64,000 bases of DNA from Pleurocapsa minor GSE-CHR-MK 17-07R (GTDB taxonomy: Bacteria; Chloroflexota; Anaerolineae; Aggregatilineales; Phototrophicaceae): positions 62,001 to 126,000 of the forward strand of contig JAHHHY010000001.1 in assembly GCA_019359125.1 (NCBI GenBank), given 5' to 3'. Positions 4,859-28,750 of the stretch are shown here, piece after piece. The notes under the pieces were generated by a model that was not told the origin of the DNA, did not search any database, and saw only the letters and a program-made list of their open reading frames with translations. A program made the translations under genes and the position numbers. How positions within the stretch are numbered: position 1 is the stretch's first letter; every line of letters begins with the position of its first letter.

Positions 4859-6142
4859 ATGCCAACCGCACGTGAAGTAAAGAATCGCATCCGCAGTATC
4901 AAGAACATCGGCCAGATTACGCGCGCGCTGGAGGCTGTGTCGGCCTCCCGCGTGCGCCGTGCACAGTCACGCGTGCTGGCCAGCCGCGCCTACTCTGAAA
5001 AGGCGTGGGAAATCCTGCTCAACGTGCAGAATGCCGGTTCTGGCGGTGGGGCACTGCATCCCCTGCTGACGGCGCGTGAAGAGCAGAAGTCGGTCATGGT
5101 CATCCTGATTACGTCCGAGCGCGGCCTGGCTGGCGCGTTCAACACCAACGTCATCAGGGCCAGCCTGCGCTTCAGCGAGCGCCTGGGCAAGCCGGTGAAG
5201 TATGTGACGGTGGGGCGCAAGGGCCGTGATTCGCTGTCGCGCCTGCGCAGGAACATCGTCGCTGAGTTCCCCAACCCGGACGAAGCAGGCCTGGCAGTCT
5301 ACCGCCCGATCATCCAGATGGCGATCGATGATTTCCTGTCTGGCGGCGTGGATGAAGTGTTTGTGGCGTATACCGACTTCGTGAATACGCTCACGCAGAA
5401 GCCGCGCGTGCTGCGCCTGCTGCCGCTGTCTCCGTATGAGACCGATGACCAGGTCGCCAACGAGTACATCAAGGATGCGCCGAAAGTCACCGGTGGCTCC
5501 AATCAGTACGAGTTTGAGCCGTCGCCCGAGTCGATCCTCGATGAAATCGTGCCGCGCTTCACGCAGCTGACCTTTTACCAGGCAGTTCTGGAAAGCAAGG
5601 CCAGCGAGCACAGCGCGCGTATGGTGTCGATGCGTAACGCCAGCGAGAATGCGGCTGGCCTGGTGGTCGACCTGACGCTCGTCTATAACAAGGCGCGCCA
5701 GGCGGGCATCACCAGCGAAATTCTGGACATCGTGGGCGGCGCCGAGGCGCTGGCGACGACGCTGGAAAAGAAGGCGGACGAGATTTTCGCCCGTATGCAG
5801 GCGCTGTCGAAGTCGCGCGCTGCCGCCGCTGCTGCATCGCCGGCCCGCCCGGTGATCGAGCGCAAGCCGGTCAAGAGCAAAGGCGATGGCGACGATCTGA
5901 CCAAGCTGGAAGGCATCGGCCCGAAGATTTCATCGATCCTCAAGGCCGCCGGTGTGGATACCTTCGAAAAGCTGGCTGCAAAGACCGAGAGCGATCTGCA
6001 CGACCTGCTGGTGGCTGGTGGCCTCAAGCCGCTGCCGCCGACCTTCAAGTCATTTGCACAGCAGGCTGCCCTGGCCGCGCGTGGCGACTGGGACGGTTTG
6101 AAAGCACTACAGGATACATTGACCGCAGGGCGAGACGCCTAG
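4859..6142 (+). CDS. atpG: F1 ATP synthase subunit gamma with fused C-terminal helix-hairpin-helix domain
   Basis: Residues 1 to about 298 are a normal gamma subunit, the rotating central shaft of F1. The N-terminal helix (REVKNRIRSIKNIGQITRALEAVSAS), the Rossmann-like middle (VILITSERGLAGAFNTNV) and the conserved C-terminal helix (SMRNASENAAG...KARQAGITSEILDIVGGAEAL) are all present. The protein then runs on to 427 residues. An Ala/Pro/Lys-rich linker (about 299-344) is followed by an 83-residue helix-hairpin-helix module (345-427) with DLTKLEGIGPKISSILKAAG and the ending WDGLKALQDTL. There is no frameshift or internal stop; the fusion is one clean frame. The ATG follows GGGAGGTG. Gamma proteins usually end near residue 290-315, so the extension is about 110-130 residues. 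Confidence 0.95.
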   Translation: MPTAREVKNRIRSIKNIGQITRALEAVSASRVRRAQSRVLASRAYSEKAWEILLNVQNAGSGGGALHPLLTAREEQKSVMVILITSERGLAGAFNTNVIRASLRFSERLGKPVKYVTVGRKGRDSLSRLRRNIVAEFPNPDEAGLAVYRPIIQMAIDDFLSGGVDEVFVAYTDFVNTLTQKPRVLRLLPLSPYETDDQVANEYIKDAPKVTGGSNQYEFEPSPESILDEIVPRFTQLTFYQAVLESKASEHSARMVSMRNASENAAGLVVDLTLVYNKARQAGITSEILDIVGGAEALATTLEKKADEIFARMQALSKSRAAAAAASPARPVIERKPVKSKGDGDDLTKLEGIGPKISSILKAAGVDTFEKLAAKTESDLHDLLVAGGLKPLPPTFKSFAQQAALAARGDWDGLKALQDTLTAGRDA

Positions 6143-13041: not shown

Positions 13042-14571
13042 ATGAAAGTAATCAGACGCCTGTTGTTTTACGTCATCCTGCTGGCAGGGGCGGGACTCTT
13101 GTTTCTGGGGGCGCGAACATTCGTGTTTCCCCCGCCAGACGTGCAGGAAGATGCTGCTGACAGCCGCATCGTGGATGAGACGATCGTGCAGCGTGAGCCG
13201 CTGCGCGTGACTGTGGGCGCGACTGGCCTAGTGCAGCCTGCACGCCAGCTTCCGCTGGTGTTTGAGCTGCCCGGCACGGTCTCGGACATTATGTTCAGCG
13301 AGGGTGACAGCGTGCGCGCCGGCGATATCATCGCCACGCTGGACACGGCTGAGCTGGAAACCGCGCTGCAAACCGCCCTTCTGGCGCTGCAAAGCCAGCA
13401 GATTACGTATGATGCGCTGACAGCGCCGCCCAGGCCGGAAGATATAGCCGTGGCGCAGGCCGCCGTAGACGGGGCACGGGCCGCATTGAATGCAGCCTAT
13501 TCCACAGGCACCACCACCCAGCAGATTGATATCGCGTCACTTCAGACCGAGCTGGCGCGCAATCGCCTGTGGCAGGCGCAGCTTCAGCGCGATATTTCGG
13601 CTTCCGGCACATTCGGCGTCGATCTGTCGTCGCTGGTGCCCGAAGGCGTGGATATTTCGCAGGACATCATCGACCAGGCCAATGCTGCGCTGGCTGGCGT
13701 GCTTCCGCAGACGGGTTTCGGCGGCACCAGCGCGACAGCCGGGCTGAACCAGGCCGAATTTGGTGTGCAGATCGCTGAGTCTCAGGCGAATGCGACGGCC
13801 AATCGTGCGCCCAACATCGGCAGCGTCGCGCAGGCGCAGGCGGCCTTGCGCACCGCGCAGGCCTCGCTGGATCGCCTGCTCAACGGCCCGAATGACATCG
13901 ATATTCAGATGGCTGTGCTGGGCATCCAGCAGGCCCAGGTCGGGGTGGAGCAGGCGCAGGCCGCGCTCAATCGTGCGCGCATTGTGGCCCCGTTTGACGG
14001 CGTGATCGCGCAGATCAACCTGACCGAAGGGGAGCCGCCGCCGTCTGATTTGCTCAGCAATCCGCCCGTTTTGCTGGTCGACAGCACGCGCCTGCTGATC
14101 GATGTCTCGGTGGATGAGACTGACATTGTCGATTTACAGGTCGGCCAGCCGGTCGAGCTGCGTTTTGACGCGCTGCCCGACCAGACGATTTCCGGCCAGG
14201 TGACGCGGGTGAACCCGGTGCCGCTGGTGGTGGGATCGCTGGTGACATATCCGGTGCGCGTGACGCTCGAAAGCACCGACGCGGGCGTGCGCCTGGGCAT
14301 GACGGCCACGGCTACTGTCGTCGTCGATGAGCTGGAGGACGTGCTCGTGCTGCCCAACCGCTTCATCCGCATCGACCGCGCCACGCAGGACGCCTTCGTC
14401 ACCATTGAAGATGCCAACGGCGCGTTCCAGGAAGTGCCGATTACGCTGGGACTGCGTAACGAAACGACCAGCCAGATCGCAGAAGGGCTTGAAGAAGGCG
14501 ACCGCGTCGTCTTGCTCCCCCGTGGCACGTTTGACCCGATCGCCAATCAGACCGGCCAGCAGCCGCGCTAA
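13042..14571 (+). CDS. HlyD/MacA-family membrane fusion (adaptor) protein, second of two
   Basis: A 509-residue paralogue of the preceding gene, 14 bases downstream. It has one N-terminal membrane helix (LLFYVILLAGAGLLFLGA), a first lipoyl half (LPGTVSDIMFSEGDSVRAGDIIATLDT), a coiled-coil hairpin with an inserted stretch rich in Gly/Ser/Thr (about residues 190-250), and a second lipoyl half (RIVAPFDGVIAQINLTEGEPPPSD). The C-terminal part ends GLEEGDRVVLLPRGTFDPI, a normal family ending. Having two different adaptors with one ATPase is unusual and suggests a heteromeric adaptor ring or two alternative assemblies. Confidence 0.85.
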   Translation: MKVIRRLLFYVILLAGAGLLFLGARTFVFPPPDVQEDAADSRIVDETIVQREPLRVTVGATGLVQPARQLPLVFELPGTVSDIMFSEGDSVRAGDIIATLDTAELETALQTALLALQSQQITYDALTAPPRPEDIAVAQAAVDGARAALNAAYSTGTTTQQIDIASLQTELARNRLWQAQLQRDISASGTFGVDLSSLVPEGVDISQDIIDQANAALAGVLPQTGFGGTSATAGLNQAEFGVQIAESQANATANRAPNIGSVAQAQAALRTAQASLDRLLNGPNDIDIQMAVLGIQQAQVGVEQAQAALNRARIVAPFDGVIAQINLTEGEPPPSDLLSNPPVLLVDSTRLLIDVSVDETDIVDLQVGQPVELRFDALPDQTISGQVTRVNPVPLVVGSLVTYPVRVTLESTDAGVRLGMTATATVVVDELEDVLVLPNRFIRIDRATQDAFVTIEDANGAFQEVPITLGLRNETTSQIAEGLEEGDRVVLLPRGTFDPIANQTGQQPR

Positions 14572-24642: not shown

Positions 24643-26004
24643 ATGAACAATATTCCTGGTTCCAATGTACCGCGCCAGCCGATCAAGACCCTGTCGGGCA
24701 GCCTGCGACCTACGCAAACGGGTGACCTGAGCGGCGCGTGGACACCCCCGCCGCTGTCAAAGCTGGAAGATACCGGCCTGAATCTGCTGAATGTGGCGGA
24801 CCTGGTGCTGAAAGTGCTGTATTTCGGCGGCTATATGGCAGGCCATCAGATTGCCGATATCGTCAAGCTGCCGTTTACCGGCGTGCTTGACACGGTGATG
24901 GAATTCCTCAAGCGCGAGAAACATGTGGAAGTGCGCGGCACGGGGGGCATCGGTGAATCCGGCTACCAGTACCTGATTTCCAGCGCGGGCGCCAATAAGG
25001 CTCGTGAGGCGCTCGACCGCTCGCAGTATGCTGGCCCGGCGCCGGTGACGCTGGCGCAGTATATCCAGGCGATGAACGAGCAGAATACGCGGCGCCTGCT
25101 GGTGCACGAGGAAGAGCTGCGCGGCGTCATGCGCAACCTGGTGATCTCGGATGACATGCTGGGGCGCATCGGCCCTGCTGTGAACAGCGGCAAGTCGATC
25201 TTCCTGTATGGCCCTCCCGGCAACGGCAAGACGACCGTCGCAGAAACCGTTGGGCGCATGGTGCTCAGCGGCACGATCTGGATTCCCCATGCATTTGACG
25301 TGGACGGACAGGTCATCCGCGTATTTGACAACGTGAACCACGAGCTGGCCGAGCCGGAGGAGCGCATCCGCCTGGGTGTGGGCATGTCGCCAGACCCGCG
25401 CTGGATTCGCGTGCGCCGCCCGATGATCATGGTCGGCGGTGAGCTGACGCTGGCCGGCCTGGACCTGGTGTTTGACGACACTAACAAGTATTACGAGGCG
25501 CCGTTCCAGGTGAAAGCCAACGGCGGCATGTTCCTCATCGACGACTTTGGACGCCAGCAGGTGCGCCCGCGTGACCTGCTCAATCGCTGGATTGTGCCGC
25601 TTGAAAAAGGCGCAGACTTCCTGACGCTGGCGACCGGCCGCAAGATCGAAATGCCGTTCTTCGTGCTGATTGTGTTCTCGACCAATATCGACCCGCGCGA
25701 CCTGGTGGACGAGGCGTTCCTGCGCCGTATCCGCCATAAAATCGAAATTACCGACCCCACGCCGGACCAGTTCCGCGAGATTTTCAAGCGTGTGTGCATG
25801 GCCAAAAATGTGAAATACGACGATAACGCGCTGGCCTATCTGTACAAGGAATGGTACCTGAACCAGAATCGCAAGTTGCGTTCGGTGCATCCCCGCGACC
25901 TGATCAATCAGCTGCTGGATATCGCGGTTTACCTGAATAAGCCGCCGGTGCTGAGCAAAGACATGATCGACCGCGCGGCCGCATCTTACTTTGTGAACCT
26001 ATGA
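24643..26004 (+). CDS. AAA+ ATPase with N-terminal winged-helix-like region, role unknown
   Basis: A 453-residue protein. Residues about 45-125 look like a winged helix or small helical domain (VADLVLKVLYFGGYMAGHQIADIV). The AAA+ module shows Walker A LYGPPGNGKTTVAE (about 188-201), Walker B GGMFLIDDFGRQQ (about 294-306), sensor-1 IVFSTNIDP (N348), and a candidate arginine finger RRIRHKIEI (about 361). A C-terminal lid domain contains RSVHPRDLINQLLDIA. The ATG at 24643 follows TTGGAGTGAG and is preferred to the open frame at 24580. Its stop overlaps the next start (ATGA), so the pair is translationally coupled. Confidence 0.75.
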   Translation: MNNIPGSNVPRQPIKTLSGSLRPTQTGDLSGAWTPPPLSKLEDTGLNLLNVADLVLKVLYFGGYMAGHQIADIVKLPFTGVLDTVMEFLKREKHVEVRGTGGIGESGYQYLISSAGANKAREALDRSQYAGPAPVTLAQYIQAMNEQNTRRLLVHEEELRGVMRNLVISDDMLGRIGPAVNSGKSIFLYGPPGNGKTTVAETVGRMVLSGTIWIPHAFDVDGQVIRVFDNVNHELAEPEERIRLGVGMSPDPRWIRVRRPMIMVGGELTLAGLDLVFDDTNKYYEAPFQVKANGGMFLIDDFGRQQVRPRDLLNRWIVPLEKGADFLTLATGRKIEMPFFVLIVFSTNIDPRDLVDEAFLRRIRHKIEITDPTPDQFREIFKRVCMAKNVKYDDNALAYLYKEWYLNQNRKLRSVHPRDLINQLLDIAVYLNKPPVLSKDMIDRAAASYFVNL

Positions 26005-27026
26005 CAAAAGTTCGAAACGGGATGCCTGTCCCGCGCCATCAGGTGCTGCTGCTGGATGATGGCAATCCGGCTGTCTTGTGGGCGGAAGAGCGTGTGCAGG
26101 AATTGCAGTCGGGCCGTTTTCACGAAGGCATTGACCTGGCGCGCGCGCGTTCACTGCTGGATGACGAGCTGCACGAGCTGGCTTCGCTGGGCATCATCGA
26201 GGATTACAGTGACCAGTTTGTCTGGCTGATGGCGATGCATGTGCCGCGGGAGTCGCCTGATGACGTCGAGATGCGCGCGCTGGCGGAGGCCGCGGGCAAG
26301 CGTGTCTTCATCGTGTACACCACGCTGCTGGAAGACCAGGTGGAGCAGGTGCGCACGCGTCTGGACAAGAGCCCGCTGAAGCACGAGGTCGAGGTGCTGC
26401 CGCTGAACGGGCTGACGGCCATTGTCGGGCGCGCTGGCAAGCCGTTCGCTACGGTGGGCGAGGCAGACCACGTGTTGCAGATTGTGCTGCGGCTGGGCGC
26501 ACAGTTTGCCGATTCAGCCGTCGTCTTTCAGGATGGCCGTGATGGACGTAAATCCACCAATGAAATGGTTGCCGCGGTGCTGAATGAGCCTGAAGCAGAG
26601 CTATCGTTTGACGAGCTGGCGGCCAGCCAGATGGCGACTGAGGCTACCGCAGGCAAGCGTGCGCTGCTGGTGGTGCATGAGCCGCATTTTGAGCGCGTCG
26701 CCTTCGAGGCGCTGGGCAGCCTGAATATCGAGCCGCTGGTCATCGGCTCGGATGCGGCGCTGCGTCAGGCGCTGGCCGAAAGCCCTGCACTGCTAATGTG
26801 CGATATGGCCGCCATTGAGCAAATTGGCTCGCAGTGGCTGGTCGATCTGTTGTCTGAATATGGGCGTGCGCTTCCAGTGCTGGTGCTGGCGAATCCGGCC
26901 CAGTTTGACCCTGACGCTGCGCTGATTCTGAAGAATGCCGGCGTCGGCTTCGTGCTGGATTTTCCCCTCAGCGCATCGAAACTGCGCCTGCATATTTATG
27001 AAGTGCTGCATCATCCACAAGCCTAG
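26001..27026 (+). CDS. unknown protein with receiver-like C-terminal domain
   Basis: A 341-residue soluble protein, translationally coupled to the AAA+ gene by a 4-base overlap. The C-terminal 120 residues follow the response-regulator receiver plan: ALLVVHEPHFERVAFEALGS, then a central Asp in LLMCDMA, then PVLVLANP, then FVLDFPLSASKL. The Asp at the phosphorylation position is kept, but the usual acidic pair at strand 1 and the conserved Lys-Pro are absent, so phosphorylation is doubtful. The middle (about 90-170) looks like a second alpha/beta unit; the N-terminus (ELQSGRFHEGIDLARARSLLDDELHELASLG) is helical. I do not recognise a named family. Confidence 0.6.
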   Translation: MTKVRNGMPVPRHQVLLLDDGNPAVLWAEERVQELQSGRFHEGIDLARARSLLDDELHELASLGIIEDYSDQFVWLMAMHVPRESPDDVEMRALAEAAGKRVFIVYTTLLEDQVEQVRTRLDKSPLKHEVEVLPLNGLTAIVGRAGKPFATVGEADHVLQIVLRLGAQFADSAVVFQDGRDGRKSTNEMVAAVLNEPEAELSFDELAASQMATEATAGKRALLVVHEPHFERVAFEALGSLNIEPLVIGSDAALRQALAESPALLMCDMAAIEQIGSQWLVDLLSEYGRALPVLVLANPAQFDPDAALILKNAGVGFVLDFPLSASKLRLHIYEVLHHPQA

Positions 27027-27116
27027 CTGCACGCCAGATAGGATAGAATGCCGATTGTAATCCGGCGCTGTTCTGCTAAAGTGATAGCTATGGTTTTCTA
27101 GTATTTCACGTGGATT

Positions 27117-27743
27117 ATGGCTGCTTCCTCACACGATCCTGTCCCCTGGTCTAAGCATATGCGCCGTCTTTCGGGTGCGTCTTCCAACGCAGACAGTGAC
27201 GGCCTGCCCGATGCATTTGGCGGGTCCCTTGATGAATGGATGGCACCTGCTGAAGTGGTAGAGCAGGTGAAAGCCCACTACCGCGAAACTGTGCAGTGGC
27301 TTGAGGCCGCGCCGGCCTATGTCGGCTTCGCGCGTTGGCGTGATCAGGCCGCACGCTTTCTCAGCGGGGCGAGCCTGGTACACTTCACCGCTTCGCTGCA
27401 AACGGCCCGCGAATCTGTGCCCCGTCTCTTTGACGTGCTGCGTGCAGAGCATCACCTGAGCGTGCGTTATTTCTCGCACCATGGCGTCATGTGCCTGCTG
27501 ACCGATGAACAGCTGGACCGCCGCGTGGCGACCTACGATCTGTCGACTGGCGCGCGCGTGACCACGCAGGATATGGGCAGCAGTCGCGTCGTGTTTGCGA
27601 TGCGCTATGTCGCGCAGGGCGAGCCGCGCTGGAAAGTCGATACCTACCTTCAGGAAATGCCGCTGGCAGCGAATAATCCGCAGGGCAGGGTGCGCATCGT
27701 GGAGCGGGCATCGCTGCCACGTCCCACCGGCCGCGACAGCTAA
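27117..27743 (+). CDS. hypothetical protein
   Basis: A 208-residue protein without signal peptide or membrane helix. Residues 45-180 have an alpha+beta look: long helices (EVVEQVKAHYRETVQWLEAAP and YVGFARWRDQAARFL) followed by strands (HHLSVRYFSHHGVMCLLTD and SRVVFAMRYVAQGEPRWKVDTYLQEM). This plan resembles small NTF2/IMS-like domains, but that is a guess. It lies 90 bases after the receiver-like gene and 5 bases before the epimerase gene, all in one direction. The ATG at 27117 has no clear ribosome-binding site. Confidence 0.6.
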   Translation: MAASSHDPVPWSKHMRRLSGASSNADSDGLPDAFGGSLDEWMAPAEVVEQVKAHYRETVQWLEAAPAYVGFARWRDQAARFLSGASLVHFTASLQTARESVPRLFDVLRAEHHLSVRYFSHHGVMCLLTDEQLDRRVATYDLSTGARVTTQDMGSSRVVFAMRYVAQGEPRWKVDTYLQEMPLAANNPQGRVRIVERASLPRPTGRDS

Positions 27744-27748
27744 CCCGT

Positions 27749-28750
27749 GTGAACGACAGCACTGTTTTTGTCACAGGTGCCACAGGCTTCCTGGGGCGCT
27801 ATCTGCTGCCCGCGCTGTCTGAGCGTTATTCCCACGTGCGTGTGCTGGTGCGCCATCCGGATGCCCCGGCCAATGCGTGGCTGCGCACAATTCCCAATCT
27901 CGATATCATCACAGGTGACCTGCATAATGCGAACGCGCTGGCCGCAGGTATGGCAGGCGCATCGTTCGTGGCCCATGCGGCGGGACTGTTTCGCTTCTGG
28001 GGCGATGCGACCGGCTTTGAGCGCGTAAACGTGCAGGGCACCCAGGCCATGCTGGAGGCCGCGCGCGCCGCCGGGATTCGCCGTTTTGTGCATGTGTCCA
28101 CCTTCGCGGTCGTGGGCACGCCGCTGCCGGGCGCGATCGTGGATGAGGCGCATCCGGTCCAGCCGCAGGACCCGTATCAGCGCAGCAAGCTGGAAGCGGA
28201 GCGTCGTGTGCTGGCCGCGGGCGCGGCAGGTGATATGGACGTTGTGGTGCTTCGCCCAGGTGCATTTTACGGGCCGCATGGCACCTACGCGTTCAATCGG
28301 CTGTTTTTTCACGACCCGATGCGCGGCCTGATCATGCAGATGGATGGCGGCAAATACATCATCCCGCCGGTGTTCGTGCCGGACGTGGCGCAGGCGGTCG
28401 CGCTGGCGCTGGAACACGGCCGCGACGGCGAAATTTATAACATTTGCGGCCAGCCGCTCAGCCATCGCGCGGCCTATGACATTGTCTGCCGTGAAGCAAA
28501 GCTGCGCTTTCCCCGCCTCAATCTGCCCGGCTGGATGGGCATTATGGCCTCGCAAATCATGGAGCGCGTCGCGTCGATTACCCACCGCGAACCGTTCTAC
28601 CCCTTAAATATGCGCACCTACGTGTATAATGACTGGCGGGTTTCTTCAGAAAAAGCGGAGCGTGAGCTGGGTATCCGGTTTACGCCGTTTGAAGACGGGG
28701 CGCGGCAGACGATTGCGTGGTATCGCGCCGGTCGCCCACAGGTCAGCTAA
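27749..28750 (+). CDS. NAD(P)-dependent epimerase/dehydratase (extended SDR)
   Basis: A 333-residue extended short-chain dehydrogenase. The nucleotide site is VFVTGATGFLGRYLLPAL at the N-terminus; FVHVSTFAVVG supplies the Ser region; and the catalytic Tyr-x-x-x-Lys is YQRSK. VVLRPGAFYGPHG is the usual later block. Relatives act on nucleotide sugars, dihydroflavonol-type compounds or sterols; the substrate is not readable. The start is GTG at 27749 (MNDSTVFVTGATGF), 5 bases after the previous stop. It is followed by obgE after 29 bases. Confidence 0.85.
   Translation: MNDSTVFVTGATGFLGRYLLPALSERYSHVRVLVRHPDAPANAWLRTIPNLDIITGDLHNANALAAGMAGASFVAHAAGLFRFWGDATGFERVNVQGTQAMLEAARAAGIRRFVHVSTFAVVGTPLPGAIVDEAHPVQPQDPYQRSKLEAERRVLAAGAAGDMDVVVLRPGAFYGPHGTYAFNRLFFHDPMRGLIMQMDGGKYIIPPVFVPDVAQAVALALEHGRDGEIYNICGQPLSHRAAYDIVCREAKLRFPRLNLPGWMGIMASQIMERVASITHREPFYPLNMRTYVYNDWRVSSEKAERELGIRFTPFEDGARQTIAWYRAGRPQVS

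Follow-up and report, generated by a model that had tools for sequence, protein, structure and literature searches.

A three-gene AAA+ ATPase locus of a Chloroflexota bacterium that may be a detached accessory module of the Tad pilus

What might three adjoining genes do when no named family in Pfam, NCBIfam, PHROGs or PADLOC covers their products? The question is raised by a gene trio within a stretch of 64,000 nucleotides, hereafter the window, from contig JAHHHY010000001.1 (positions 62,001 to 126,000) of Pleurocapsa minor GSE-CHR-MK 17-07R, a 4.85 Mb draft assembly placed in the phylum Chloroflexota, class Anaerolineae, order Aggregatilineales and family Phototrophicaceae. An earlier reading of the letters alone (the sequence-only reading) had described the trio, at positions 24643-27743, as an AAA+ ATPase, a receiver-like protein and a third small protein that match no known system, and had proposed them as an undescribed functional module. 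All three open reading frames were confirmed, point in one direction and are conserved as proteins, and the ATGA overlap between the first two (26001-26004) is as described. The trio is interpreted here, with a probability of roughly 0.6, as a detached accessory (satellite) module of the Tad (type IVc) pilus, an adhesion pilus of bacteria, built around the ATPase. The genes may thus form a module, as had been proposed, though not a free-standing one, as two of the three tie to the Tad pilus.

The link between the ATPase family and the Tad pilus is well supported, to begin with by its distribution. The phylum was sampled with 301 genomes. The ATPase was matched in 130 of them, or in 127 after removal of three weak matches (G014, G106 and G249, expectation values (E) of 1.6e-4 to 5.2e-4), and the Tad motor protein CpaF, called at E <= 1e-70, in 185. 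Both were present in 125 genomes, the ATPase alone in two, CpaF alone in 60 and neither in 114. CpaF therefore accompanies the ATPase in 125 of 127 genomes, compared with 60 of the 174 that lack it (Fisher p 6e-35, uncorrected for phylogeny), and the two exceptions, G035 and G044, are assemblies of 84% and 88% completeness. MshEN, a control of the PilB/GspE type, showed no such link: it occurred in 40 of 127 genomes with the ATPase and in 53 of 174 without it (both 40, ATPase only 87, MshEN only 53, neither 121; odds ratio 1.05, p 0.90). All seven sampled genomes of the window's order carry the ATPase, and one copy was found in the window's own genome.

The position of the gene elsewhere points the same way. 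Homologues of the ATPase were found by tblastn on 75 plasmid records from eight proteobacterial genera, and in each of the 13 records that were opened the gene lies within or adjoining a tad operon (cpaB, cpaE/tadZ, cpaF/tadA, tadB, tadC, tadE/G). These loci come from Rhizobium, Sinorhizobium/Ensifer, Salipiger, Burkholderia, Paraburkholderia and Photobacterium. The first two have the order cpaB-rcpA-tadE/G-cpaE-cpaF-tadB-tadC followed by the ATPase gene; in Burkholderia, Paraburkholderia and Photobacterium the gene stands before cpaB, after those for the Flp pilin and the prepilin peptidase where these are annotated; and the Salipiger gene and tadC are convergent. Seven aligned rhizobial tad loci (e.g., L072:11313-11873) have a small-protein gene after the ATPase gene, whose product has a hydrophobic N-terminus followed by a charged region. 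Judged by eye, it bears no likeness to the third protein of the window, and it could be another lineage-specific partner. The co-occurrence with CpaF and the location in tad operons together tie the ATPase to the Tad pilus. It is distinct from both CpaF and CpaE and does not figure among the pilus components named in the literature passages available.

Within the Chloroflexota, cpaF lies directly downstream of the ATPase gene in five of the 20 loci of one locus set, and no more than 5 kb away at at least 12 of the 109 places compared. The copy in the window stands outside a tad operon: the main tad genes of the genome, cpaB-cpaE-cpaF-tadB-tadC, are found on the same contig some 830 kb from the trio (C22:916.5-922.6 kb). 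TadE is matched on C22, at 886 and 890 kb, and also on C21. The CpaE of the main locus (L082 7775-9076) has both the receiver and the ATPase domain. A second cpaF was seen on contig C13 (L083:9015-10481), and reading of the surrounding 20 kb by eye brought no further tad gene to light. A tree of 46 ATPase proteins was built from tblastn segments with gaps removed and stops written as X, leaving out L047 and L048, which are partial genes. In this tree the window's ATPase groups with the relatives from its order, the cpaF-adjacent copies form other Chloroflexota branches, and the seven proteobacterial proteins included fall on one side of a single branch (94/86). A second ATPase paralogue present in L061, L063, L065 and L070 makes up a separate clade; in the last three it is extended at the N-terminus by roughly 100 residues.

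A separate second tie to the Tad pilus comes from the third protein, which is homologous to the product of a gene in tad loci. A profile from alignment A3, which holds the third protein and eight relatives (34-48% identity), leaves out L047 and includes no member from a tad locus, detected the gene in four of the seven genomes of the order and in three of the 143 others of the class, namely G327, G421 (E 2.6e-14) and, weakly, G192 (E 6.3e-5). A further profile, A5, holds one tad-locus member (L099) and so leans to the tad types; across the 301 genomes of the phylum it found, besides the window's own gene, that of G192 and three copies in G011. The homologues in G421, G192 and G011 (all three copies) lie with tad genes, so that tad loci of three Chloroflexota encode relatives of the third protein. 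That of G421, for instance, is placed between a gene for a TadE-like protein and one for a secreted-looking protein; gene names in L099 and L108-L111 come from tblastn matches and partly from reading by eye. When 12 sequences, of the order type and from G327, were compared by hhalign with five tad-type sequences, a probability of 99.3% was obtained (E 7e-21, 136 columns), compared with 0.1% and 1.3% for two unrelated comparisons.

Four of these tad loci share a gene for a Cys-rich, secreted-looking protein after the homologue of the third gene (L099:3790-5058, L108:9697-11184, L110:7557-8339 and L111:7247-8929). By eye, the N-terminus of the tad-type proteins includes a hydrophobic stretch, and the same is true of some proteins of the order type. 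Database searches with the third protein returned nothing useful from Pfam, one match from the PDB profile search (E 0.69) and a weak match to a tail protein in PHROGs (E 0.0025). From its sequence pattern the protein might adopt an NTF2-like fold (cone-shaped alpha+beta).

Whether the three genes belong together can be judged from related loci. Their order is shared by most of these, and five loci are incomplete: the second gene is missing from L033, where the third is present; L038 and L095 have the second gene and no third was seen; and L037 and L050 lack both. The trio is hence not equally cohesive, and is best read as a conserved ATPase with fast-changing partners. One could go further and regard the ATPase and receiver genes alone as the unit, the third gene belonging with the epimerase-family gene that follows and the trio being a chance grouping. 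The spacing is in its favour, with 90 bases before the third gene against 5 bp after it, as are the loci in which the second and third genes occur one without the other. Outside the order, however, homologues of the third gene are found in tad loci or beside a receiver-only gene (G327), with no epimerase gene recognized there, and a chance grouping is considered unlikely.

The identity of the second protein to its eight relatives in alignment A1 (nine rows; L035 and L051 left out) is 25-31%. The structure model consists of an N-terminal part (residues 1-177) and a receiver domain, which is also found by profile and by fold search. The sequence-only reading had noted a receiver fold from which the acidic pair and Lys are missing. 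For the window's copy this is accurate: the fold is there, the acidic pair is gone and Lys is replaced by Phe321, so that the set of residues of a phosphorylatable receiver (acidic pair, phospho-Asp and Lys) is incomplete, with D268 kept at the phospho-Asp position. It does not extend to the whole family as far as Lys is concerned, which is kept in five of nine rows; the phospho-Asp is kept in seven of nine. By eye, no row has the acidic pair directly after strand 1 (0/9), L036 and L040 having D-D one to two residues later. Pfam Response_reg matches eight of nine family members, the exception being the window's copy, and neither the second nor the third protein of the window has any Pfam match; NCBIfam, PHROGs and PADLOC gave nothing beyond weak matches for the two. 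The N-terminal module was detected in six of the seven sampled genomes of the order and in none of the 143 others of the class; aside from the receiver-only gene in G327, the second protein was found solely in the window's order.

In L051, from the same family, the second gene is split: a gene for a 121-residue receiver (5632-5997) adjoins the ATPase gene, and a gene for the 175-residue N-terminal module (13223-13750) is located about 7 kb from it. Since the receiver part stays beside the ATPase gene there, this arrangement points to the receiver as the portion of the second protein that is tied to the ATPase. In L035 (11377-12378), tblastn revealed an in-frame stop in the second gene, due to an assembly error or a pseudogene.

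The sole NCBIfam match of the receiver protein is RssB (E 0.0011), and clpX is nearby in the window's order, which could suggest an RssB-like adaptor that delivers substrates to ClpXP, encoded two genes upstream. The match scores 18.1 bits, where the cut-off is 329, that in the PDB reaches only E 0.071, and in the fold search RssB ties with many other receivers, among them CpaE (rank 27) and TadZ (rank 47). Moreover, outside the window's order the ATPase family is not near clpX in the loci searched. This adaptor was rejected as very improbable. With CpaE/TadZ the second protein shares the character of a degenerate receiver beside a Tad-associated ATPase; it differs in having no ParA/MinD domain (no Pfam match) and another N-terminal module.

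The ATPase itself is much better conserved, with 55-87% identity to 18 relatives in alignment A2 (19 rows, L047 and L048 again left out). Among named bacteria, those closest to the window's genome are Anaerolineae-type Chloroflexota such as OLB15, whose ATPase is 86% identical. By its motifs the window protein belongs to the AAA+ superfamily. Of the motifs listed in the sequence-only reading, Walker A, sensor 1 (STN, 346-348) and the arginine finger (the pair R361/R362) hold and are conserved across the 19 rows, while Walker B is not the clean one described, being LIDD with Asp in place of the catalytic Glu in 19/19. A sensor-2-like HPR is found at 416-418 (HPS in 1/19). Two Burkholderia homologues (L073 and L123) keep Walker A as GPAGSGKT, and a motif scan saw no Walker B where it would be expected. 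The unusual N-terminal winged-helix-like region proposed earlier finds support in the secondary-structure prediction, with helices at 48-62, 67-74 and 78-91 and strands at 95-100 and 108-112 (predicted local distance difference test (pLDDT) 79-93); past it, the AlphaFold2 model shows the AAA+ module. The features are collected in Table 1.

Table 1. Positions in the window of the three genes and of the motifs and domains recognized in their products.
Feature	Position	Strand	Remarks
AAA+ ATPase, unnamed Tad-associated family	24643..26004	+	453 aa
Predicted winged-helix region, residues 41-126	24763..25020	+	Inferred from AlphaFold2 secondary structure
Walker A GPPGNGKT, residues 190-197	25210..25233	+	Conserved in A2
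Walker B LIDD, residues 298-301	25534..25545	+	Asp at usual catalytic-Glu position
Receiver-domain protein (second gene)	26001..27026	+	341 aa; start inside the ATPase stop codon
Degenerate receiver domain, about residues 218-340	26652..27020	+	Predicted structure, profile, fold search
Third protein	27117..27743	+	208 aa; homologous to a membrane-anchored protein from tad loci of other Chloroflexota

Assignment of the ATPase to a narrower family did not succeed. Pfam AAA is matched at 21.4 bits (cut-off 21.2) by the window protein and at E <= 0.01 by 19/19 members; apart from this generic model, no curated Pfam or NCBIfam model reaches its cut-off. The fold search gave VIA Z values of about 9-10 for stretches of some 190-250 residues and singled out no family, its best row being an uncharacterized Pyrococcus protein (8p49). 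Classical AAA proteins (Cdc48/VCP, PAN, Vps4) lead both the sequence and the structure lists, but they were rejected as an identity, as their similarity in sequence is centred on Walker A or on the stretch after sensor 1, many folds tie, and all NCBIfam models are far below their cut-offs. An identity as an IetAS-type anti-phage ATPase was also tried. IetA models match weakly (E 5e-10 in PADLOC; E 1.3e-6 and 27.9 bits in NCBIfam, where the cut-off is 510), over a best stretch that covers little beyond Walker A. PADLOC leaves the two neighbours unmatched, and the ATPase is strongly conserved across the phylum; this identity was rejected as scarcely credible. A phage origin was likewise set aside, since tblastn gave no match among 50,697 phage records.

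The beta-hairpin before the sensor-1 strand is a feature of MoxR-like AAA+ proteins. Such a hairpin is predicted in the window's ATPase at 324-338 (pLDDT 61-69), and a NorQ chain is found at rank 45 of its fold list; these are its points of likeness to the MoxR type (RavA, NorQ, bpMoxR). The sequence-only reading had named MoxR and RavA as examples of known families whose clear assignment would speak against it; no MoxR-type model reached its cut-off. The bpMoxR model, whose cut-off is 27 bits, scores 12.8 and matches 1/19 members at E <= 0.01, AAA_3 is absent among the listed matches, and there is no vWA partner, both neighbours being without a Pfam match. The winged-helix N-terminus and the LIDD Walker B also set the ATPase apart.

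In the most serious alternative, the ATPase is a general MoxR-like assembly chaperone with several clients, recruited to tad loci in some lineages and serving another role in the window's order. Most of the Chloroflexota loci read have lineage-specific neighbourhoods without tad genes: tig-clpP-clpX in the window, or, by eye, a glycerophosphodiesterase-like gene and a long glycosidase-like gene in the Anaerolineales. Several lineages also carry the second paralogue mentioned above. On the other side stand the presence of CpaF in nearly all genomes with the ATPase, to which the MshEN control is unlinked, and the tad-locus homologues of the third gene, which adjoins that of the ATPase. A general chaperone is thus judged improbable, though less so than any other alternative.

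Several observations weigh against a satellite module of the Tad pilus. In the first locus set, the other 15 of 20 Chloroflexota loci have no tad match, barring a weak CpaE-like match about 6 kb off (L070), and a second set of 20 loci (4.5 to 21 kb each) shows none beside the ATPase gene. The co-occurrence with CpaF carries no correction for phylogeny. Sixty genomes have CpaF without the ATPase, from which it follows that the Tad machine can work without it and that the ATPase is accessory rather than core. A single tad-type query reached only G428 of the five genomes with an order-type third gene (E 9.9e-4), so the homology between order-type and tad-type genes rests on profiles. In G327, outside the order, the third gene adjoins the receiver-only gene (L098:7158-8278), the ATPase gene is on another contig, and no tad gene was recognized in the stretch read. 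The N-terminal module of the second protein shows no tad link, and the third gene, given the epimerase gene 5 bp beyond it, may belong with that gene. Finally, the model of the ATPase is of moderate quality (mean pLDDT 70.4), with residues 265-312 below 50 and the Walker B region low.

The surroundings of the trio are themselves conserved. Upstream are tig-clpP-clpX and then a divergent gene for a metallo-beta-lactamase-fold protein; downstream, the epimerase-family gene (27749-28750) is followed by obgE and nadD. Related loci repeat much of this order from tig-clpP-clpX through the trio to epimerase-obgE-nadD.

If the trio is indeed an accessory module of the Tad pilus, a mechanism can be envisaged. 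MoxR-type proteins are AAA+ assembly chaperones. By analogy with these, the ATPase would form a ring and use ATP to remodel or assemble the inner-membrane motor of the pilus (CpaE/TadZ, CpaF and TadB/C). Docking or targeting could fall to the winged helix and to the receiver protein, the latter as an adaptor, and the third protein, some relatives of which have a hydrophobic N-terminus, would be a membrane-side partner. A wider proposal is put forward more tentatively, as a possibility less probable than the Tad association of the trio itself. Tad machines of the Chloroflexota as well as of Alpha-, Beta- and Gammaproteobacteria might use an unrecognized AAA+ remodelling ATPase beside CpaF and CpaE, which assembles, recycles or switches the motor. 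In the window's order this ATPase, placed outside the main tad locus, would have gained a receiver adaptor and a tad-type membrane protein, so that a second locus controls the activity of the pilus.

The passages available explain the cytoplasmic energetics of the Tad system by a single motor, CpaF, together with a single ParA/MinD-like protein, CpaE, which is described as having an atypical receiver domain and lying around CpaF (PMC13170226). The motor ATPases of type IV filaments are termed 'AAA+' in a passage of PMC6668835. Among the titles and abstracts of open-licence papers retrieved, none deals with an AAA+ protein of the present kind in Tad systems; a description elsewhere is possible. 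No word starting with 'AAA' occurs in the portions of main text available from PMC10934763, PMC13170226, PMC12918737, PMC12075869, PMC8383342 and PMC3244431.

With the Tad reading, a trio of genes that was otherwise unexplained acquires a role open to testing. One more conserved ATPase in the tad operons of distant phyla would, if true, be a missing part of the machine. It would also provide a function for genes that are annotated merely as 'AAA family ATPase' or 'hypothetical protein'. Since well-studied rhizobia carry the ATPase, its role is directly testable.

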